Below, piece by piece: positions 14,758-35,936 of a stretch of 35,936 bases of DNA (within the stretch, counting starts at the first letter, position 1; each line of letters begins with the position of its first letter). The DNA is from a virus. The DNA lies in the IMG/VR virus record IMGVR_UViG_3300025138_000137, positions 1 through 35,936 of that record; one strand, written 5' to 3'. A program made the translations under genes and the position numbers. The notes beneath the pieces were generated by a model, which had not been told where the DNA came from, did not search any database, and saw nothing but the letters and a program-made list of their open reading frames with translations.

Positions 14758-15411
14758 TTATACTAGTTTTAATGCTGATTTAAAGATATCTTGCTGGATT
14801 TGAAGTACATCTTTATACAGGTCTTCCAGTGTTCCGACGTTTTTAATGACGTAATCCACGTCGTATCCTGCCCAATTCCACTCACTTTCATGAACATCTT
14901 TGTACTTTGTTTCCATAATCTTGCGTGAAATTGCGTTGCTATGTGCTGTTTTGGCGGTTTCGTACCATTCTGGAAGTTCTTCTCGTTGCACCCATATGAT
15001 TTTTCCATCTAAGTTCTTAATAAGATCTAATTCATTTCTAAATCTAGCATCACTTATTACTACGCATTTGGCGTTACCTTTACGTCTTAGTCTATATTCT
15101 AAACTATCTATCCAAATATCTTGATGAAAATGATTACGCATTACATCAGTTCCAAGCAATTGAAGTGCTAGTCTAGGTGTAAAGTTGGGTATACCTGTTT
15201 TGCGAGTCCAAAATATATCAGGTGTTTCACGAAACTCTCTGCTTTCAGTTGAATCGCCTTCAAGCAAGTTTCTATCCCAACCAAATGTTGATGCACATAC
15301 GTCTTTTAATGGGTTTGCAAAACTATCATGAACGCAACCGGCTTCTACAAATTTGTTAGCAACTGTGTCTTTGCCTGATCCTATAAATCCTACTATGCCT
15401 ATTAAATTCAT
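14758..15411 (-). CDS. 1: Deoxynucleoside monophosphate kinase (gp1-like)
   Basis: Phage dNMP kinase, 217 aa, which phosphorylates dNMPs to dNDPs for phage DNA synthesis. The P-loop GFIGSGKDT lies at residues 8-16. DSFANPLKDVCASTFGW and the LID-region TPRLALQLLGTDVMRNHF, then VVISDARFRNELDLI, match the T4 gp1 family (T4 gp1 is 241 aa). ATG follows the gp13-like stop directly, with no gap, so the two are coupled. A metabolic gene lying between neck and sheath genes implies late or continued expression. Substrate range cannot be read from sequence. Confidence 0.9.
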   Translation of the reverse strand: MNLIGIVGFIGSGKDTVANKFVEAGCVHDSFANPLKDVCASTFGWDRNLLEGDSTESREFRETPDIFWTRKTGIPNFTPRLALQLLGTDVMRNHFHQDIWIDSLEYRLRRKGNAKCVVISDARFRNELDLIKNLDGKIIWVQREELPEWYETAKTAHSNAISRKIMETKYKDVHESEWNWAGYDVDYVIKNVGTLEDLYKDVLQIQQDIFKSALKLV

Positions 15412-24121: not shown

Positions 24122-25261
24122 ATGTATAATCATCACATTACGGCAGTACATGTTGAAGCAACAGATAGATGTAATGCACAATGCCCTGTGTGTATACGTT
24201 CGTACCAAGGTGGTCCTGTAAATAATGTTGTTACTGATAGTGAATTAGGCTTAGCACATTTTAAAGAGTACCTAGGAGAGGACTTTTGTTCTAAAGTTGC
24301 TACTTGGAACTTTTGTGGTAATAAAGGCGACCCTGCTAGTGCTTTAGAACTTGTTGAGATATTTGAATATATTTTAAAATGTAATCCTGAAACAAAAATA
24401 GATATGAGAACTAACGGTGGTGCAAGAAGTGAAAAGTTTTGGGCAAGTATAGGAAAACTTTTTAAAGATACAAAATGTAGTGTAGTTTTTGCAGTAGATG
24501 GTTTAGAAGATACCAATCACATTTATAGAAAAAATGTTAAATGGTCTAACCTGTATAGAAATATAAAAGCATATTGTAAGAATGGTGGCTATAGGCAAGG
24601 GTGGTTCGACACACTAAAATTTGGTCACAATGAACATCAGTGGGAAGAAATAGAAGCACTTTCAAAAAGATTTGGCTTTTGGACTAATTTTAAAGAACCA
24701 TATGGCTTTGCTAAACTGCCAAACGGAAAAGTTAAAACTATACCGGTATACGATAGAAATCCAGACTGGCAAGGAAAGTATAATCCGTTATACACTATTA
24801 AGCCACATGGTGATGTAGAGTATGAAGACCCTGCATATATGCCTATGGCCGAAGAAGATGTTAATCAAAAAGAAGTATTCTATGATTACAACTATGATGA
24901 ATTATTTAAATACAGCGACACCGCTATTAGTTGTGTTGCTAATCAACCAGATAACGACCATTACGAAATATTTTTAGACTGCGACGGTAGTGTTTATCCT
25001 TGTTGTTTTATAGGATCAAGATTGAACTATGGTGAAGATCAACTAGAGGCTATGTTAAAAGACGAGAATATTGTTCTATCACCAAATAACACAATACACG
25101 ACATACTAAAATCTAGATACTTTATAAAAACTGTACCAGATGGCATATCAGGTAAGTTTACTGATGCTAACCTAACTATACAAGGAAAAACAAATCATTG
25201 TTTAACATGTGTAGACTGCTGTGGCATGAAGATGGAACTTTCTCATATGAAAGAATCGTAA
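24122..25261 (+). CDS. Radical SAM/SPASM-domain enzyme
   Basis: 379-aa radical S-adenosylmethionine enzyme. The 4Fe-4S motif CNAQCPVC (Cys17, 21, 24) lies at the N-terminus after EATDRC. The TIM-barrel pattern follows: NFCGNKGDP (the GGEP-like position), DMRTNGG, and VFAVDGLEDTNHIYR. The C-terminus has a SPASM-type set of Cys: 271, then DCDGSVYPCC (287, 294, 295), then CLTCVDCC (360, 363, 366, 367), for auxiliary clusters. SPASM enzymes modify peptides or sugars. There is no small precursor peptide beside it, and sugar enzymes lie on both sides, so a sugar or protein substrate is more likely than a RiPP. It is the first gene of the plus-strand island. Confidence 0.87.
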   Translation: MYNHHITAVHVEATDRCNAQCPVCIRSYQGGPVNNVVTDSELGLAHFKEYLGEDFCSKVATWNFCGNKGDPASALELVEIFEYILKCNPETKIDMRTNGGARSEKFWASIGKLFKDTKCSVVFAVDGLEDTNHIYRKNVKWSNLYRNIKAYCKNGGYRQGWFDTLKFGHNEHQWEEIEALSKRFGFWTNFKEPYGFAKLPNGKVKTIPVYDRNPDWQGKYNPLYTIKPHGDVEYEDPAYMPMAEEDVNQKEVFYDYNYDELFKYSDTAISCVANQPDNDHYEIFLDCDGSVYPCCFIGSRLNYGEDQLEAMLKDENIVLSPNNTIHDILKSRYFIKTVPDGISGKFTDANLTIQGKTNHCLTCVDCCGMKMELSHMKES

Positions 25262-28761: not shown

Positions 28762-29309
28762 TGAGGCGAACCTTCTCTATTTAGAAGCCAGTTAATTGTA
28801 ATTCTAAAATCAGACTTAATGTCTACTCCTGCACTATGCCAACTATTTTCAGTAACTTTAAATAAAAGTAATTGTCCAGGCATTCCGCCTATTTCTTTTC
28901 CAGGACCGCGTTCATCTTCATGCACATTTGTTCCAAATACTTTTTCATCATTTAAGTATATTATACCTCTTGCAGGTATATAAAAGTCCCCATCGTAATT
29001 GTAATCGTTGTGTACATCAAGTTTTGAAGTTCTATCAAACATAGACGTGCCCATTGTAACTGTAACAATATCTAAATCCCATAACTCATTTACTTTTCTA
29101 ACAATTTCGTCTCGATGTTCATCTAGTAGATCTTGTGCAGGATGCGGAAACATGTTGTTGAACTCGTCGAATTTTGTTAATACTGTGCTTGATTCTTTAT
29201 ATTCTTTGTATGCTGATTTAACAAAGTCAGCATCTATAAAATCTATAAGTAGATGTTCAAAAGGCTCGTATTTTATATTATCTTTATGTATTGCATCTAA
29301 GTTTATCAT
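28755..29309 (-). CDS. 2OG-Fe(II) oxygenase C (prolyl-4-hydroxylase-like)
   Basis: 184-aa 2-oxoglutarate/Fe(II) oxygenase. His100-x-Asp102 (LDVHNDYNYDG), GIIYLND in the core strand, His158 (NSWHSAG) and Arg169 (DFRITINW) form the complete iron and 2OG set, in the style of prolyl-4-hydroxylases. It is distinct from the A/B pair at 18.6-19.6 kb. Its start overlaps the adenylate cyclase stop (ATGA), so it is made together with the cyclase. The target is unknown. Its 3' end overlaps a convergent gene by 7 nt, and no terminator is visible. Confidence 0.83.
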   Translation of the reverse strand: MINLDAIHKDNIKYEPFEHLLIDFIDADFVKSAYKEYKESSTVLTKFDEFNNMFPHPAQDLLDEHRDEIVRKVNELWDLDIVTVTMGTSMFDRTSKLDVHNDYNYDGDFYIPARGIIYLNDEKVFGTNVHEDERGPGKEIGGMPGQLLLFKVTENSWHSAGVDIKSDFRITINWLLNREGSPHQ

Positions 29310-31375
29310 TTTGATGTTTTTCTTTCAACTCCGTCCCAATCACCTATAGGCATTGGTTTTTTAATTCTTTCTGCATATAACTCTGCTAGTGTATTATTCC
29401 AGTTATGTTCTTTTATAATTTCTATCTGGTGTGAACAAGTTGCCCATTCTCTATTTTGATATGCATCTATCATTCTATTTACTACTCTTGCATATTTATG
29501 ATCATTTAGTATAGTATATATTGTTACAGGTGCTGTTTGGCCTTTAACTGCAATTTTATCTAAGATAGTTAAATTTTCCGGAGTGTTAATTTGTTTTAGT
29601 GTATGCTCAGTAAACATAAAGAACACACCATACTCTTTGGTTTGTGCTTCTAAACGTGCCGCTAAGTTTACACTATCACCTAAAACAGTATAATCGAAAC
29701 GTTGATTAGAGCCCATATTACCTACTACTGCGTCACCTGTGTTTATTCCTATGCCAACACCTAACTCCATAAGTCCGTCTGCTTTAAGTTCTTTATTAAG
29801 ATCTTTAAGTTCAACTTCCATTTCCTGTGCTGTCTCTATTGCCAACTGAGCATGATTATCAACATCTAGTGGAGCATTCCATATTGCCATTAAGGCATCG
29901 CCTATATACTTGTCTATTGTTCCTTCTTTACGCATAACTAAATCAGTCATTGGTGTCATGTACCTGTTTATAAGTTTGCCTAAACCTTGTGGGTCTGTTT
30001 TAAACTGTTCTGATATAGGAGTAAAGCCACGTATGTCTGAAAACAAATAAGTCATTGTTCTTGTATCTCCACCTAAACGTAATAGGCTTGGATCTTTCTG
30101 TAACTTCTTAACCATTGCTGGAGCAAGATAGTGTTCAAATTGCTTCTTGATTTGTTCACGTAATTTAAATTGTTTATAGAAGTTGTTAAATGCCGCCTGT
30201 GTAAACACTAGGAACCCACTAATTACAGGGAATGTAGCATCTAATAATACTAATCCATTTGTGTATTTGTAAACACTAAAGTATGCTATTCCGCCTAATA
30301 TAGTTAAACTAATAGGTGCTGTAAGTAGCAAAGGTAATCTATATACTGCTAGTGCCACTAATAACATAGTCACAGACGCAATAAGAACCTCTATAAGCGA
30401 CGATAACTGACTCCGCTGTATATTTGATCCACTTATAAAGTTTTGTAGCATGTGTGCTTGTATATGCTGTGGATAGAGGTTGCCTCTTGGAGTAGGAACT
30501 GGATTAGCAATACCTTCTGCTGTAACACCTACTATCACATACTTGCCTGCAAGGTCTGGTATGCTTTCTGCACCCTCGTATTCTATCTCTGTAAACTTGT
30601 TATTAAAACGTATATATGCCGTACCGTTTGGTTGTGTTACAATAGGCTGGTACCCTTTGACAGCAATTTCTTGTATGCCTATTTCATTTGTTTTAACTAT
30701 ATAACTTTTATTACCTGTTTTAACTCTCAACATCTCTACAGCAAAAGAGGGATAAATTTTCTCACCTACTGTAATTGCTAATGGGTATGTTCTTGTTTGG
30801 TTGTCTGGTTGTGGTGCTGATGCATTAACACCTTTACCGTTACTTGCTGATTCTAAAGTGTCTATATTGGTAACTAAATTAGGCCACTTTAACAAATAAT
30901 CTTTTGCTGGAACAGGCCCTATTGTGCCTGTGCCTATATGTGGTCCTGATGACTTTATACCTTTAACACTTGGTGTTTGACTTATAACATTATAGTTTAC
31001 AGGATTACGTCTAGCACCCGGAACATTCATTACGTTCTGAGTCATCATACCTGCAAAACTATCATCTCCTCCAAATCTATCTGCTTCAGGAAACATAATA
31101 GTCCATCCAAGTACGCCACCATTTTTCATAGCAACGTCTACAACCATTTGTGCATAGTATTGTCTAGGGAAAGGATATTGGCCGTATTTTGCTAAACTTT
31201 TTTCGCCAATGTTTATTAGTACAATATCTTCACTTTGTACTATTTCATCTAATTGTTGATAACTGTCAAATACTTGACCACGTAAGGATTGTAATGGAGT
31301 AGGGTCAAATACCCTAAGTGCGAGTAATAGAAGAATCGATACTGCTACTGCGTACCCGCTATATAACCATTTCAT
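29306..31375 (-). CDS. CHASE2-domain membrane adenylate cyclase (class III)
   Basis: 689-aa sensor-cyclase that would make cAMP from ATP. One N-terminal membrane helix (about 5-22) leads to an extracytoplasmic CHASE2-type sensor (about 25-325). Three membrane helices follow (about 327-345, 349-368, 373-392), the standard CHASE2 layout, and then a cytoplasmic cyclase domain (about 437-625). Catalytic residues look intact: metal Asp447 (FSDIRGFT) and Asp493 (IGDALMA), substrate Lys489 and Thr563 (DYTVLGD), transition-state Asn570 and Arg574 (SVNLAARLE). The Lys/Thr pair is the class IIIb type, some members of which respond to bicarbonate. A late box sits 5 nt before ATG, and an oxygenase is coupled downstream. 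This gene type is usual in bacteria and unexpected in a T4-like phage. Confidence 0.93.
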   Translation of the reverse strand: MKWLYSGYAVAVSILLLLALRVFDPTPLQSLRGQVFDSYQQLDEIVQSEDIVLINIGEKSLAKYGQYPFPRQYYAQMVVDVAMKNGGVLGWTIMFPEADRFGGDDSFAGMMTQNVMNVPGARRNPVNYNVISQTPSVKGIKSSGPHIGTGTIGPVPAKDYLLKWPNLVTNIDTLESASNGKGVNASAPQPDNQTRTYPLAITVGEKIYPSFAVEMLRVKTGNKSYIVKTNEIGIQEIAVKGYQPIVTQPNGTAYIRFNNKFTEIEYEGAESIPDLAGKYVIVGVTAEGIANPVPTPRGNLYPQHIQAHMLQNFISGSNIQRSQLSSLIEVLIASVTMLLVALAVYRLPLLLTAPISLTILGGIAYFSVYKYTNGLVLLDATFPVISGFLVFTQAAFNNFYKQFKLREQIKKQFEHYLAPAMVKKLQKDPSLLRLGGDTRTMTYLFSDIRGFTPISEQFKTDPQGLGKLINRYMTPMTDLVMRKEGTIDKYIGDALMAIWNAPLDVDNHAQLAIETAQEMEVELKDLNKELKADGLMELGVGIGINTGDAVVGNMGSNQRFDYTVLGDSVNLAARLEAQTKEYGVFFMFTEHTLKQINTPENLTILDKIAVKGQTAPVTIYTILNDHKYARVVNRMIDAYQNREWATCSHQIEIIKEHNWNNTLAELYAERIKKPMPIGDWDGVERKTSK

Positions 31376-31395: not shown

Positions 31396-32295
31396 CTACC
31401 CTTTTACTAGTTCTCTAAAGTGATCAATAGTCAGTTGCATACCTTCTTCTAGAGGCATAAGTGTTTCATCTGACATATCGACATGCTTTAAAGATTCAAC
31501 ATTTGCACTAACTGTAGCACCTGCAATTTCGCCTGGTCTCATTGGTAAGTTAATTACTTTGCTACTGCTACCACTTAATTTTATTATAAGTTCTGCAATT
31601 TCTTGGACTGTTTTATTATCCTTAGGGCCAACTTCTACTGCTTCTGGAAATACGTTTCCTACGAATGCTTTTTCTGTAGCAATAACTAATGCATGTGCTA
31701 CATCGCCGACCCAACACATATCACTAACTTGTGAACCATCACCATATACTTCTATATCCATGTTATCTAATGCTCTGCAGGCAAACGAAGGTGTAATTTT
31801 TCTCACTTTAGAATCACCCCATGGCGGTACTGCTCTTTGTCTAGGGCCATATGCATTCATGGCTCTAACAATATTAACCTGTGTGCCTCTATCATTATTA
31901 TACATATCAATAAAACGTTCAATCATTGTTTTTGTTATAGAATAAGGATTATTCATCCAGTGATTACCTACGCCAATATAAGTGCCGGGCAAGTTGTATT
32001 GTGACGCGGCTTCTAGCATATTAAGTCCACCCATTAAATTACTTAACGCGGCTGGTCTTGGATTTGCGATTGTTTCTTGTGTGCCTAATACTGCGGCTAA
32101 ATGTATCCAACTGTCTACATGTGCCATTGCTTCAGTAACAGCAACTTCATCTCTTACATCTCCTAGTATTACTGGGCAAGAATAATTTCCTCTGTCATAA
32201 TGATCAAAGATTACAGGTTCGTGTCCTCTTTCTTTTAATTTTTCTACTACATAGGAACCGATAAATCCTGCTCCGCCTGTTACTAATACTTTCAT
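31396..32295 (-). CDS. NAD-dependent sugar epimerase/dehydratase (second SDR)
   Basis: 299-aa extended SDR. NAD motif GGAGFIG at residues 7-13, HLAA at 65-68, Tyr118 and Lys122 in PYSITK, then NAYGPRQR and a PMRPGEIAGATVSAN segment near the end. The place of the catalytic Ser/Thr reads IGVGNHWMN and has no clear Ser, so activity may be altered. AGGAG stands before ATG. It is last in the operon with the sulfotransferase and glycosyltransferase, and probably supplies or alters the sugar they use. Confidence 0.86.
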   Translation of the reverse strand: MKVLVTGGAGFIGSYVVEKLKERGHEPVIFDHYDRGNYSCPVILGDVRDEVAVTEAMAHVDSWIHLAAVLGTQETIANPRPAALSNLMGGLNMLEAASQYNLPGTYIGVGNHWMNNPYSITKTMIERFIDMYNNDRGTQVNIVRAMNAYGPRQRAVPPWGDSKVRKITPSFACRALDNMDIEVYGDGSQVSDMCWVGDVAHALVIATEKAFVGNVFPEAVEVGPKDNKTVQEIAELIIKLSGSSSKVINLPMRPGEIAGATVSANVESLKHVDMSDETLMPLEEGMQLTIDHFRELVKG

Positions 32296-32304
32296 TCTAT
32301 TCTC

Positions 32305-32961
32305 CTAAATTGAATCTGGCCAATATTCTTTTATTATATCACTAAAAACAGCATGACCTTTCTGTAACTGTATTGTGTTTAATTTTTCCTTATAATAGTA
32401 TTTCTTTGCTTTAAAAAAGAAACTATGTCCGGGGTTTGTTCTTCTTGTTAATGTATTTACTGCATCATGTTCTCGTGCTTTACAATTTTGTAATGTATAT
32501 TTTTCTACTGCTGAATTTATATTTTTTAATTCTGCTTTTGGATTATAACTTACTATCTTTATTAATTCTCTAGCAGGATTGTCAAGCATATCTTCATATC
32601 CTATTTGTATTGGTGCTTGTAATCCATATACAAATGAATCCTCATACTGTATCTTAGGTATAAAATTAAATAATGCTCCTTCCTCTAAAAAATGATCGTA
32701 GTATTCTGATTCTGTTAATTCGCATTCTTCGTCTTGGACTAACTGCGTATAGTTCCATGCACTACATACGACATCTAATGGATGCCTAAAAACATGTATA
32801 TCTGGACGAATACTAATTGGATATTCTATCTTTAGAACAAGTTCATCTAAAATTGTTTTATCTGTTAAGTCGCAGAAATAGTCTGGCTTATGTAGTAATT
32901 CAATTGCCATCCATACTAACCAACTGCCTCCACTTTTAGTATAACTTGCTACTAGCACCAA
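32305..32961 (-). CDS. Sulfotransferase-like protein
   Basis: 218-aa protein of the PAPS-dependent sulfotransferase superfamily. Residues 8-15 (TKSGGSWL) match the 5'-phosphosulfate loop (PKSGTTWL in the family). HVFRHPLDVVCSAW (Arg59, Ser67) matches the 3'-phosphate motif RxPxDxxxS. IGYEDMLDNPA is also typical. It would move sulfate to a hydroxyl or amine, most likely on a glycan given the glycosyltransferase that overlaps it by 10 nt. It is shorter than most family members (250-300 aa). Confidence 0.8.
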   Translation of the reverse strand: MVLVASYTKSGGSWLVWMAIELLHKPDYFCDLTDKTILDELVLKIEYPISIRPDIHVFRHPLDVVCSAWNYTQLVQDEECELTESEYYDHFLEEGALFNFIPKIQYEDSFVYGLQAPIQIGYEDMLDNPARELIKIVSYNPKAELKNINSAVEKYTLQNCKAREHDAVNTLTRRTNPGHSFFFKAKKYYYKEKLNTIQLQKGHAVFSDIIKEYWPDSI

Positions 32962-33674
32962 TGCTCCTTTATCCAGTTATCTGCAGGCCATGTATGATCA
33001 ACTTCGTGTGGTTGTGGCTTGCCGTGAAAAAATACCATATTAACTGTATCTGGTAGTGTGCGTACAGTTGCTAATGATTGTGCTTTATAACTTACGCACT
33101 CATTAGGAAATTCATCTTGTAATCTAATAACCTCAGGAGGTTCTATAAAATCTGTTAATGCAGGTCTTGGGTTTTTATTAATTCTAACAACACCCATGCA
33201 CTCTTCTAAAAATTGATTTGTTCCGCCCCATTGTGTATAATCGCAATCTAAGTTGGGATAGTCCTTAGGTTCATATTTAGATGTAAAGTATTTCCATACT
33301 GCATCTCTAATTTCTTTATTCCACATAATATATGCAGTTTGCAATCCTGATAGCCAACCAAAGTCACTAATAGTTGCAAACGGTTTATCTAAACCTATAA
33401 TATGATCTATGTTTCCTGTAATAATAGTATCTAAATCCATATATACCAATTTATCATTATGTTCATGCTCTGGATTAGTAAGTCCTATAATATACCACCA
33501 TACTGGTAAGTCTACTAAAAACTCTCTGGTCTCACATTCAACATCGGTAGGATCGTCTGTATAACAGATAAATCTATGCGGAACAGTTACATATTTTTGT
33601 ATTGCATGATATAAGTTATTTACATACTCAGGACCAAATTTAGGACCCCATTTAAAACATACTATGTCTATCAT
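32952..33674 (-). CDS. Glycosyltransferase, GT-A fold (GT8-like)
   Basis: 240-aa transferase with the metal-binding DxD in LVYMDLDTIITGNID (Asp80, Asp82), preceded by HRFICYTDD. A later YIMWNKE and a C-terminal VFFHGKPQPHEV (His-Gly-x-x-Lys-Pro) fit GT8-like enzymes. It should transfer a sugar from a nucleotide sugar with a divalent metal. It overlaps the sulfotransferase by 10 nt and the 60-aa gene by 4 nt, which implies a shared pathway. Acceptor unknown. Confidence 0.82.
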   Translation of the reverse strand: MIDIVCFKWGPKFGPEYVNNLYHAIQKYVTVPHRFICYTDDPTDVECETREFLVDLPVWWYIIGLTNPEHEHNDKLVYMDLDTIITGNIDHIIGLDKPFATISDFGWLSGLQTAYIMWNKEIRDAVWKYFTSKYEPKDYPNLDCDYTQWGGTNQFLEECMGVVRINKNPRPALTDFIEPPEVIRLQDEFPNECVSYKAQSLATVRTLPDTVNMVFFHGKPQPHEVDHTWPADNWIKEHWC

Positions 33675-34554: not shown

Positions 34555-34591
34555 AACACGTTCCTCTGCCTTTTAAAACAGAGGAAGTGTT
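34555..34591 (-). terminator. Terminator of the lipoprotein transcript
   Basis: On the minus strand TTCCTCTG/CAGAGGAA form an 8-bp stem around a 10-nt loop. It is lengthened by AACAC/GTGTT across a one-base bulge and followed by TATTT. It sits 18 nt after the stop codon of the -1 frame extension, and nearly 200 nt after the zero-frame lipoprotein stop. Confidence 0.8.
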
Positions 34592-34608: not shown

Positions 34609-34788
34609 TTACTCGCACTCTTTAGGATTCTTAGAGCAGTATTCCATTAGTTTCTGATACATCTTAAGTTGACGTATAAACTCTCGGACCTCCTCGTCAG
34701 TCACCTGCTCATCCTCTTTCGAGGGTTTTGCTTGTACCTTATCGTTTTTTTCCAAAAACGTAAAAGGTTTAAAGAATGAGCGTGTTAC
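34609..34788 (-). CDS. -1 frame extension of the lipoprotein (possible frameshift product)
   Basis: An open frame of 59 codons without an ATG near its beginning continues from the end of the lipoprotein gene in the -1 frame. It reads VTRSFFKPFTFLEKNDK, then a charged helical part (VTDEEVREFIRQLKMYQKLM) and ends with two Cys (CSKNPKECE). The composition is protein-like. It could be made by -1 frameshifting at A_AAA_AAG (34788-34794), which would give a 155-aa fusion, or from an internal GTG (codon 29, about 31 aa, GAGG upstream). The position of the terminator right after this frame's stop supports a coding role. Confidence 0.5.
   Translation of the reverse strand, partial: VTRSFFKPFTFLEKNDKVQAKPSKEDEQVTDEEVREFIRQLKMYQKLMEYCSKNPKECE
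34737..34767 (-). promoter_or_regulatory. Hairpin downstream of slip site
   Basis: On the minus strand CGTTTTT and AAAAACG pair around a GGAA tetraloop. An outer CCTT/AAGG stem extends it across an internal mismatch and a bulge. It starts 20 nt after the A_AAA_AAG heptamer, longer than the usual 5-8 nt for a frameshift stimulator, so its role is uncertain. No T-run follows, so it is not a terminator. Confidence 0.4.
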
Positions 34789-35075
34789 TTTTTTGGCTCT
34801 TCTTTTGGCTCTTCTTCTTGTAGTTCGTCAGTTTGCTTATCAATTTCATCTGAAACTGTTTCAACAATACCTGCACCAACTTCTAGAGCAGTTGTAGAAA
34901 TATCTGAAACATCTGATGCAACGGCTATCGCTACTCCTGATGCTGTCCCTACTACTGTGTCAACTGTGTTGACTACTAGTTCTTTGCCGCCGTCGATTAC
35001 TGTACCTACAGACGCACAACCTTGAGCAAAGATTACAAAAAAGATTCCTAGAAATGCATTCTTAAAATTATTCAT
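34785..35075 (-). CDS. Small lipoprotein
   Basis: 96-aa protein with a lipoprotein signal: a basic start, a hydrophobic run (AFLGIFFVIFAQGC) and lipidation Cys20, followed by Ala, which would favour the outer membrane. The mature part is rich in Val, Ala, Thr and Asp, with repeats resembling VDTVVGTASG and SDVSDIS. The tail is Glu/Pro/Lys-rich. The last codons CCA AAA AAG precede TAA and form a dnaX-type slip site. AAGGAG stands 7 nt before ATG, and the late box lies 54 nt upstream. Possible roles are in lysis (an Rz1-like role) or envelope change; neither is shown. Confidence 0.85.
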   Translation of the reverse strand: MNNFKNAFLGIFFVIFAQGCASVGTVIDGGKELVVNTVDTVVGTASGVAIAVASDVSDISTTALEVGAGIVETVSDEIDKQTDELQEEEPKEEPKK

Positions 35076-35129
35076 AGTTTTCTCCTTATATATAAGTGTT
35101 ATAAAACCATCTGTTATTATAACAATATA

Positions 35130-35146: not shown

Positions 35147-35449
35147 TCATCCATATAACTGATATGGGTCACCAAACACACTATTTTTATCATGTAAAAA
35201 AAGTTGATGAGCAAGAATAATCCTGGTTTGGTCGCTAGTACATGTATCTAGTAGGTTTAATATTTCTTGTCTGTTTGCTTGTTCTATATGGTGAACTAAA
35301 TCACACCACATCCAAGAAACTACAAATATAACAAATATAAAGACAGTACAAAATACAAAGTACGGAAAGAAACATGTAAATATTATGAAGTGTGCAAAAG
35401 CAATGGATAAACAATAAGTTCTATATGATGCTAACCAATTAGTCATCAT
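35147..35449 (-). CDS. Small two-helix membrane protein, 100 aa
   Basis: Residues 14-49 are strongly hydrophobic and long enough for two membrane helices with a tight turn at Pro (FFPYFVF). A soluble C-terminal half follows (HHIEQANRQEILNLLDTCTSDQTRIIL). The ATGATG start lies inside the end of the 53-aa gene, so translation is coupled. The promoter of the pair is sigma70-like, suggesting early expression. A holin-like or superinfection-exclusion role is possible, but early timing argues against a holin. Confidence 0.72.
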   Translation of the reverse strand: MMTNWLASYRTYCLSIAFAHFIIFTCFFPYFVFCTVFIFVIFVVSWMWCDLVHHIEQANRQEILNLLDTCTSDQTRIILAHQLFLHDKNSVFGDPYQLYG

Positions 35450-35600
35450 TGCTTTTAAATTGTTCTAAATAGGCATTGCTATGCCAATATGTGTCTAACA
35501 CAATATCTGCCACAAGAGCAATTAGGACTAGTGTCATAATTACAGAAAGGTATAAATTTATTCCGGCTGTTATCTTCAACCACTTGATCATATGTTTCAT
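35439..35600 (-). CDS. Small single-pass membrane protein, 53 aa
   Basis: MKHMIKWLKITAG is followed by a hydrophobic helix (INLYLSVIMTLVLIALVADI) and a polar tail ending QFKSNDD. The evidence that it is real: a near-consensus promoter directly in front, a basic-then-hydrophobic N-terminus, and a stop that overlaps the start of the 100-aa membrane gene by 11 nt. No Shine-Dalgarno site is visible. The predicted transcription start is 1-2 nt before ATG, so the mRNA may be leaderless. Confidence 0.68.
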   Translation of the reverse strand: MKHMIKWLKITAGINLYLSVIMTLVLIALVADIVLDTYWHSNAYLEQFKSNDD

Positions 35601-35608
35601 TACTAGTA

Positions 35609-35637
35609 ATTATAGCAGAAAAAAAATTATTTGTCAA
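35609..35637 (-). promoter_or_regulatory. Near-perfect sigma70 promoter
   Basis: TTGACA (35632-35637), exactly 17 nt spacer, TATAAT (35609-35614) with an extended -10 TGC. This is the strongest host-type promoter in the window. It begins just after the stop codon of the curlin-like gene and drives the two small membrane genes. Confidence 0.88.
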
Positions 35638-35640
35638 GTC

Positions 35641-35936
35641 CTATTGGGTGCCTTGTGTGACTGTTACTGAACAGCCTCCTGATGTTACACATGTTTGACT
35701 AAGTGTGTAACTTTGATTTGTGGAGCCTTGCTGTAATAGTGTTACTGCGGAAGGCTGACTTCCGGATAAATTAATTGTGGCTGTATGGGCGCCGTCTCCT
35801 TTTTGCTCTCCATTTACATTTATTGGCTGACCTGTATTGGCATTTAGGTAAACATTTTTTACACCATTACCACGTTGTCTCCAAAATACATCACTATAGT
35901 CTGCATTATATAAACGTACATCCATTGTATGGTTTG
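35641..35936 (-). CDS. Curlin-like repeat protein (5' end may lie beyond window)
   Basis: At least 94 aa are visible from an ATG at 35925. The frame stays open to the window edge, so the true start may be further upstream. Residues near SAVTLLQQGSTNQSYTLSQ match the curlin repeat spacing S-x5-Q-x-G-x2-N, and the preceding TINLSGSQ fits a beta strand of the same kind. The C-terminus has a CVTSGGC pair that could form a disulfide, and VTVTQGTQ. The protein is rich in Gly, Ser, Thr, Asn and Gln and was probably exported or displayed. Curli-type genes are, as I recall, present in some marine myoviruses; only one clear repeat is seen here. Confidence 0.55.
   Translation of the reverse strand, partial: NHTMDVRLYNADYSDVFWRQRGNGVKNVYLNANTGQPINVNGEQKGDGAHTATINLSGSQPSAVTLLQQGSTNQSYTLSQTCVTSGGCSVTVTQGTQ

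Follow-up and report, generated by a model that had tools for sequence, protein, structure and literature searches.

In dnaX genes of the reversed kind, tau is the frameshift product, and the stop codon of the zero frame follows the shift site (PMC5009743). The same source describes gpG/gpGT of phage lambda and others, where ribosomes that shift by -1 late in the first ORF make a minor product with an added C-terminal domain, and also -2 frameshifting in phage Mu. As far as such accounts go, phage cases are mostly tail chaperones; for example, the SEA-PHAGES set of PRFect comprises 2397 chaperones and 79 hypothetical proteins (PMC10885494). Curli (type VIII secretion) islands are described for Pelagibacter phage HTVC008M and Methylophilales phage Melnitz (PMC7029224, PMC9004378, PMC9599517). 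No published frameshift in a phage lipoprotein was found in open-access PMC.

The DNA analysed here (the window) is a virus record of 35,936 bases. Its terminase shows a 57% match to jumbo phages such as PA5oct and a 75% match to a 250-kb contig which also carries the lipoprotein family in question. On the minus strand, a unit of three genes lies between a promoter match and a terminator-like hairpin (Table 1) and encodes two small membrane proteins, TM53 and TM100, followed by the lipoprotein. Among the 48 distinct loci for which 700 nt or more of upstream sequence is available, relatives of TM53 are found upstream of the lipoprotein in 32, relatives of TM100 in 31, and both together in 31. 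The zero-frame lipoprotein has a signal peptide and lipobox (assigned by eye) and an amphipathic sequence in which indels of 11 residues occur among relatives.

The original prediction had this gene ending CCA AAA AAG TAA with A_AAA_AAG in phase, followed by a -1 frame open for 59 codons from 34788 to 34609, with predicted products of 96 and 155 aa; coordinates, phase, stop and lengths are all as it gave them. It also placed no ATG near the start of the -1 frame, and the first 42 codons indeed lack one. Where it put a terminator after the -1 stop, there is a terminator-like hairpin, at a distance of 22 nt; the claimed 18 nt is obtained only if the flanking ACAC is included.

Table 1. Positions of features at the frameshift locus (window numbering) and in related loci (prefixed by locus).
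Feature	Position	Strand	Basis or remark
Sigma-70-like promoter, TTGACA-17-TATAAT, TG before -10	35609..35637	-	12/12 consensus match; consensus match only
TM53, 53-aa single-TM protein	35439..35600	-	ORF
TM100, 100-aa membrane protein, directly 5' of lipoprotein gene	35147..35449	-	ORF
Shine-Dalgarno AAGGAG, 6 nt 5' of lipoprotein ATG	35082..35087	-	sequence
Zero-frame lipoprotein, 96 aa, lipobox ..FAQGC, stop TAA 34787-34785	34785..35075	-	ORF
Slippery heptamer A_AAA_AAG, in phase, immediately before stop	34788..34794	-	sequence
Stem 5' arm GCTCATTCTTT, 6 nt 3' of heptamer	34771..34781	-	pairing + covariation
Inner hairpin inside loop of stem, includes GGAA loop	34736..34768	-	predicted fold
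Stem 3' arm AGAGGATGAGC	34707..34717	-	pairing + covariation
-1 frame extension, 59 codons + stop TAA 34611-34609, C-terminus YCSKNPKECE (C-x6-C)	34609..34788	-	ORF; pN/pS 0.33
Terminator-like hairpin 3' of extension stop	34561..34586	-	overlaps remnant of signal-peptide region of relatives' next gene
Extension in +1 (or -2) frame	L018:377-556		
Extension in +1 (or -2) frame	L035:496-672		
Extension in +1 (or -2) frame	L036:2886-3062		
Extension in +1 (or -2) frame	L046:2087-2266		
Next gene of relatives (also in others)	L108:11468-11980	-	
Next gene of relatives (also in others)	L120:4338-4817		

On the strength of sequence comparison, we hold with high confidence that -1 programmed ribosomal frameshifting lets a single gene of these marine phages give rise to two lipoproteins. 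The majority of ribosomes would read ..KK and then stop, yielding a short lipoprotein (96 aa before processing). Some would slip back one base on A_AAA_AAG, or on G_GGA_AAG in other lineages, just before the stop; with slippage helped by the stem 6 nt downstream, they would continue in the -1 frame to give the 155-aa form, whose extension would add a flexible linker and a helix, with a C-x6-C loop at the C-terminus. We infer the slippage itself and its rate. Both forms would be lipidated and carried to the outer membrane, and the C-x6-C tip may act as a disulfide-closed knob docking a periplasmic or inner-membrane partner. A set frameshift rate would then fix what fraction of the lipoprotein is able to dock, in an envelope module shared with the two upstream TM proteins.

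An initial search returned 16 relatives; each has AAAAAAG and a -1 frame like that of the window. When the search was widened with the zero-frame protein, 45 viral loci came up, and also L084. This family member lies on a contig assigned to an Ilumatobacteraceae (actinobacterial) genome bin, into which a phage contig was probably sorted. Further loci came from searches with the gene next to the lipoprotein in relatives and with a second lipoprotein subgroup; for one of the relatives searches, the best 80 of 149 relatives were taken in. The 128 loci tabulated represent 69 distinct ones by slip type and 90 nt downstream, the cut loci L083, L178, L200 and L205 being left out of the counts. All members of the table were found through the zero-frame protein except L053 and L082, whose heptamers are not independent of ascertainment because both were found through the extension.

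The original prediction turned on whether homologs keep the heptamer. A canonical heptamer stands in phase with the upstream ORF at 123 of the 128 loci: A_AAA_AAG at 103 and G_GGA_AAG at 20, with none at five. In the 64 distinct heptamer cases, it is separated from the stop by 0 codons (48 cases) or 1 codon (16 cases). One or the other heptamer is also present in all 13 further loci from an extension search. If this were chance, the heptamer would be no more than a pair of lysine codons and the open reading in the -1 frame a relic, as the K- and E-rich tail of the lipoprotein might allow. However, 72 of 77 lipoprotein ORFs have one of the heptamers 0-1 codon upstream of the stop, versus 2 of the 1431 remaining ORFs with 80 aa or more on the same contigs; of these two, only L345 has a -1 frame open for 30 codons or more, and it is itself a family member. 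The AAA AAG pair has been replaced repeatedly by GGA AAG, and purifying selection acts in the -1 frame only, so that chance is contradicted by the comparative data and retains a negligible probability. Within the window, A_AAA_AAG occurs 19 times on both strands; besides the lipoprotein site, only one lies in an ORF with at least 30 codons upstream, and the -1 frame there closes after 3 codons. The lipoprotein gene, judged from these patterns, very probably undergoes real -1 programmed frameshifting.

The switching between heptamer types can be followed on a tree of 69 rows, built on 109 columns and with many forks open. On supported branches, the A_AAA_AAG label must change at least 7 times and the G_GGA_AAG label at least 4 times; the type has switched at least 4-7 times there, with position and phase constant. 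Transcriptional realignment, in which RNA polymerase slips on the A run to produce mRNAs with a changed frame, could draw on the six-A run of the window site. Six A is nevertheless short, n > 7 being quoted for such runs in the cited account (PMC3711429), and GGGAAAG, which has no long run, is used in the same phase at 20 of 128 loci. Very little credence is given to slippage by the polymerase.

The extension evolves as a protein in the shifted frame only. In the first group, to which the window belongs, its pN/pS over 16 independent pairs is 0.33, versus 1.14 and 2.14 in the other frames, and third positions hold 144 of 276 differences. The second group gives 0.30 over 18 pairs, versus 0.86 and 1.67. 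Extensions range from 31 to 74 aa, and in all 64 distinct examples from heptamer loci a C-x6-C motif is found 0-7 residues from the C-terminus, e.g., YCSKNPKEC in the window, YCSEFPQKC in L278 and CIEEKDIC in L309. This constant tip suggests, from its sequence, a docking knob. An AF2 model of the extension has a disordered linker and then a helix at 31-53, the block reaching pLDDT 88-92; the model of the lipoprotein is of low confidence (mean pLDDT 46).

Conserved protein sequence would also be expected of a separate small gene with its own start or with reinitiation after the lipoprotein stop. The window does offer two candidate starts, TTG as codon 12 and GTG as codon 29, the latter preceded by GAGG, but the TTG is not conserved among relatives, and 22 of 32 distinct sequences lack ATG, GTG and TTG in the first 24 extension codons. 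No SD-like element was found at any early start in these 32 sequences. Conservation begins directly after the heptamer, and a separate gene would have no need for an in-phase heptamer, which is kept all the same at 123 of 128 loci. A downstream gene of its own in homologs would have spoken against the original prediction; no conserved start codon serves that frame, and a second gene is considered highly improbable.

Frameshifting could also be real and serve the act or timing of translation, e.g., coupling to the next gene, instead of a long protein. The next gene of relatives encodes a secreted DUF5658-like protein (5/5 members, best E 0.0012); its GTG start lies within GAATGTGAATAA in L108 and L120, as coupling would have it, and overlaps the extension stop in several relatives. 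Against this, the extension is under selection at the protein level and always ends in C-x6-C, and it has been retained in the window, where the next gene is missing or decayed. Such a role in translation is regarded as unlikely. Of all explanations, -1 frameshifting alone fits the phase, the position, the two heptamer types, the stem, the selection and the missing start together.

In -1 frameshifting, a downstream RNA structure is typically found at about 5-9 nt. The stem described here begins 6 nt downstream of the heptamer in 27 of the 28 distinct first-group sequences that have a heptamer, and 5 nt downstream in L002. It has 10-12 contiguous pairs in these 28 and 10-13 in all 32 first-group sequences, with loops of 16-68 nt. 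Pairs 1-10 form in 32/32, five of them varying, and compensated changes on both sides occur at pairs 2, 6, 8 and 11. The 3' arm was selected for best pairing, and a codon alignment places it at the same codons throughout, L002 included; RNAalifold on that alignment recovers the stem. The hairpin with a GGAA loop in the original prediction is present but proves to be the inner arm of this larger structure, whose conserved part is the 11-bp stem.

The protein sequence accounts for some of the pairing, since recoding with synonymous codons reaches the stem length of the window by chance in 6% of trials, a figure that ranges over 0.5-13.5% among the 32 sequences. The mean energy z score is -3.75, with 31/32 below -2, against -1.34 and 8/32 for the rest of the ORF; this comparison is biased because the stem itself set the limits of the regions. 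The 3' arm can also pair within a competing local hairpin, CCTC-N4-GAGG, and at least six stem pairs form in 25/32 minimum-energy folds. Second-group stems occupy the same place with unrelated sequence, e.g., AGCCTTTTCT/GGAAAAGGCT and CCTTCTTA/TAAGAAGG. These have at least 7 bp in 34/39, and by the contiguous-helix measure only 13/39 beat dinucleotide shuffles at p<=0.05. An upstream SD-like stimulator, frequent in bacterial -1 frameshifting and not required, is lacking in 49 of 64 distinct loci, the window included. A search of Rfam at the slip site gave no match.

Five loci lack the heptamer. The only one that has also lost the C-x6-C extension is L319, which ends GAA GAA AAA TAG and has a GGGAGC..GCTCCC hairpin with a T run 3' of the stop. 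The other four (L018, L035, L036 and L046) end GAA AAG AAG TAA/TAG and carry the same extension in the +1 (equally -2) frame, with the stem retained. They occupy three places on the tree, a scatter that perhaps reflects exchange of a 3' module. A tRNA-Lys bound to AAG in the P site could pair anew with AAA two bases upstream; a convincing slippery site for a +1 or -2 shift was not found in these four loci. DNA-pattern scans for contigs of this type yielded no new one, the 12 contigs checked as new being judged chance matches, L153 excepted.

The lipoprotein family often sits in phage curli (T8SS) islands. In the first group, the gene order is csgG, curlin, FecR, curlin, TM proteins, lipoprotein, DUF5658-like secreted protein and CHASE2 cyclase, all on one strand wherever the sequence covers them, and the CHASE2 cyclase is found near 43/45 loci. 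This context is not universal because at 38/92 second-group loci csgG, curlin repeat, FecR and CHASE2 cyclase are all absent within 3 kb. Elsewhere in that group the neighbours are DNA polymerase (by eye), nuclease and UvsX genes; in other cases the lipoprotein lies behind gp32, or with an endolysin and spanins.

Several other genes were noted in the window. A 689-aa protein with CHASE2 and adenylate/guanylate cyclase domains (Pfam) is encoded at 29306..31375 (-), with 34-37% identity to its counterparts in HTVC008M and Melnitz. A fragment with curlin-repeat-like sequence by eye and no Pfam match (35641..35925, -) runs off the contig end. The stretch 31396..33674 (-) encodes epimerase and sulfotransferase domains (Pfam) and also a 240-aa glycosyltransferase-like protein, recognized by eye and without a Pfam match. 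A radical SAM protein, below the Pfam cut-off, lies at 24122..25261 (+), and a deoxynucleotide monophosphate kinase at 14758..15411 (-).

The protein of the next gene contains a YCxxNPxxC motif, with C, N, P and C invariant in 5/5, which resembles the extension tail; from this likeness the two may share a partner. A wider reading, tentative and rather doubtful, is that of an undescribed phage envelope device, in which a lipoprotein would be made in two forms at a set ratio and the disulfide knob of the long form, on its linker, would join an outer-membrane lipoprotein to a partner (TM53/TM100, or the next gene's YCxxNPxxC motif). The ratio would have been selected strongly enough for several replacements of the slip site, and in four phages the shift itself would have turned to the +1 or -2 direction without loss of the product.

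Database searches place the lipoprotein in no described family. Matches in Pfam, PHROGs and NCBIfam are only sub-threshold, and tblastn of three lipoprotein members against a collection of isolate phages gave no match, nor did the next gene. An entericidin-like or other known lipoprotein has no database support. O-spanins are outer-membrane lipoproteins that pair with an i-spanin within a lysis cassette, and a lipoprotein beside small TM proteins suggested a spanin or lysis protein; database searches returned no spanin match for the lipoprotein itself, and the spanins that L311 has of its own make this role less likely. There, an endolysin and two Rz-like spanin genes lie near the frameshift lipoprotein (L311:1054-2431). 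Tail assembly chaperones (G/GT) are cytosolic proteins encoded by a gene adjoining the tape measure gene, and this identity is ruled out by the signal peptide with lipobox and by the neighbouring genes. The likeness to lysis or tail-chaperone pairs that had been drawn for the window holds as analogy only, because no tail genes adjoin and one phage has a separate Rz/Rz1-like pair.

Gene callers would probably miss the extension and its conserved C-x6-C tip. As far as the literature cited goes, the lipoproteins are a second, apparently widespread, phage family with probable frameshifting. With two heptamer types, unrelated stems, a variant in shift direction and one natural loss, they offer a comparative set for the evolution of frameshift signals, and they open a way into the curli islands of marine phages, so far unexplained. 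The csgG, curlin-repeat, FecR and CHASE2-cyclase genes of the HTVC008M and Melnitz islands, as these are described, recur at loci of the family; in contrast, the curli cluster of both phages has no such lipoprotein between curlin and cyclase. The -2 shift of phage Mu, from what is reported of it, opens the +1 frame, as the four heptamer-less loci with an extension would need, in a different gene. As with gpG/gpGT in the same account, the gene belongs to a phage, and a -1 shift late in the first ORF would append a C-terminal domain; unlike gpG/gpGT, the lipoprotein is secreted and lies beside membrane, curli or replication genes with no adjoining tape measure. The family is without database relatives, and its heptamer and layout are already known from dnaX of the reversed kind, so far as that account extends. 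The protein is unrelated to dnaX, the window has no SD-like stimulator, and G_GGA_AAG is in use as well; common to dnaX tau/gamma and the lipoprotein gene are A_AAA_AAG, a downstream stem and a shared N-terminus, and, as in the reversed kind, the longer product would arise via a -1 shift with the stop directly after the site (PMC5009743).
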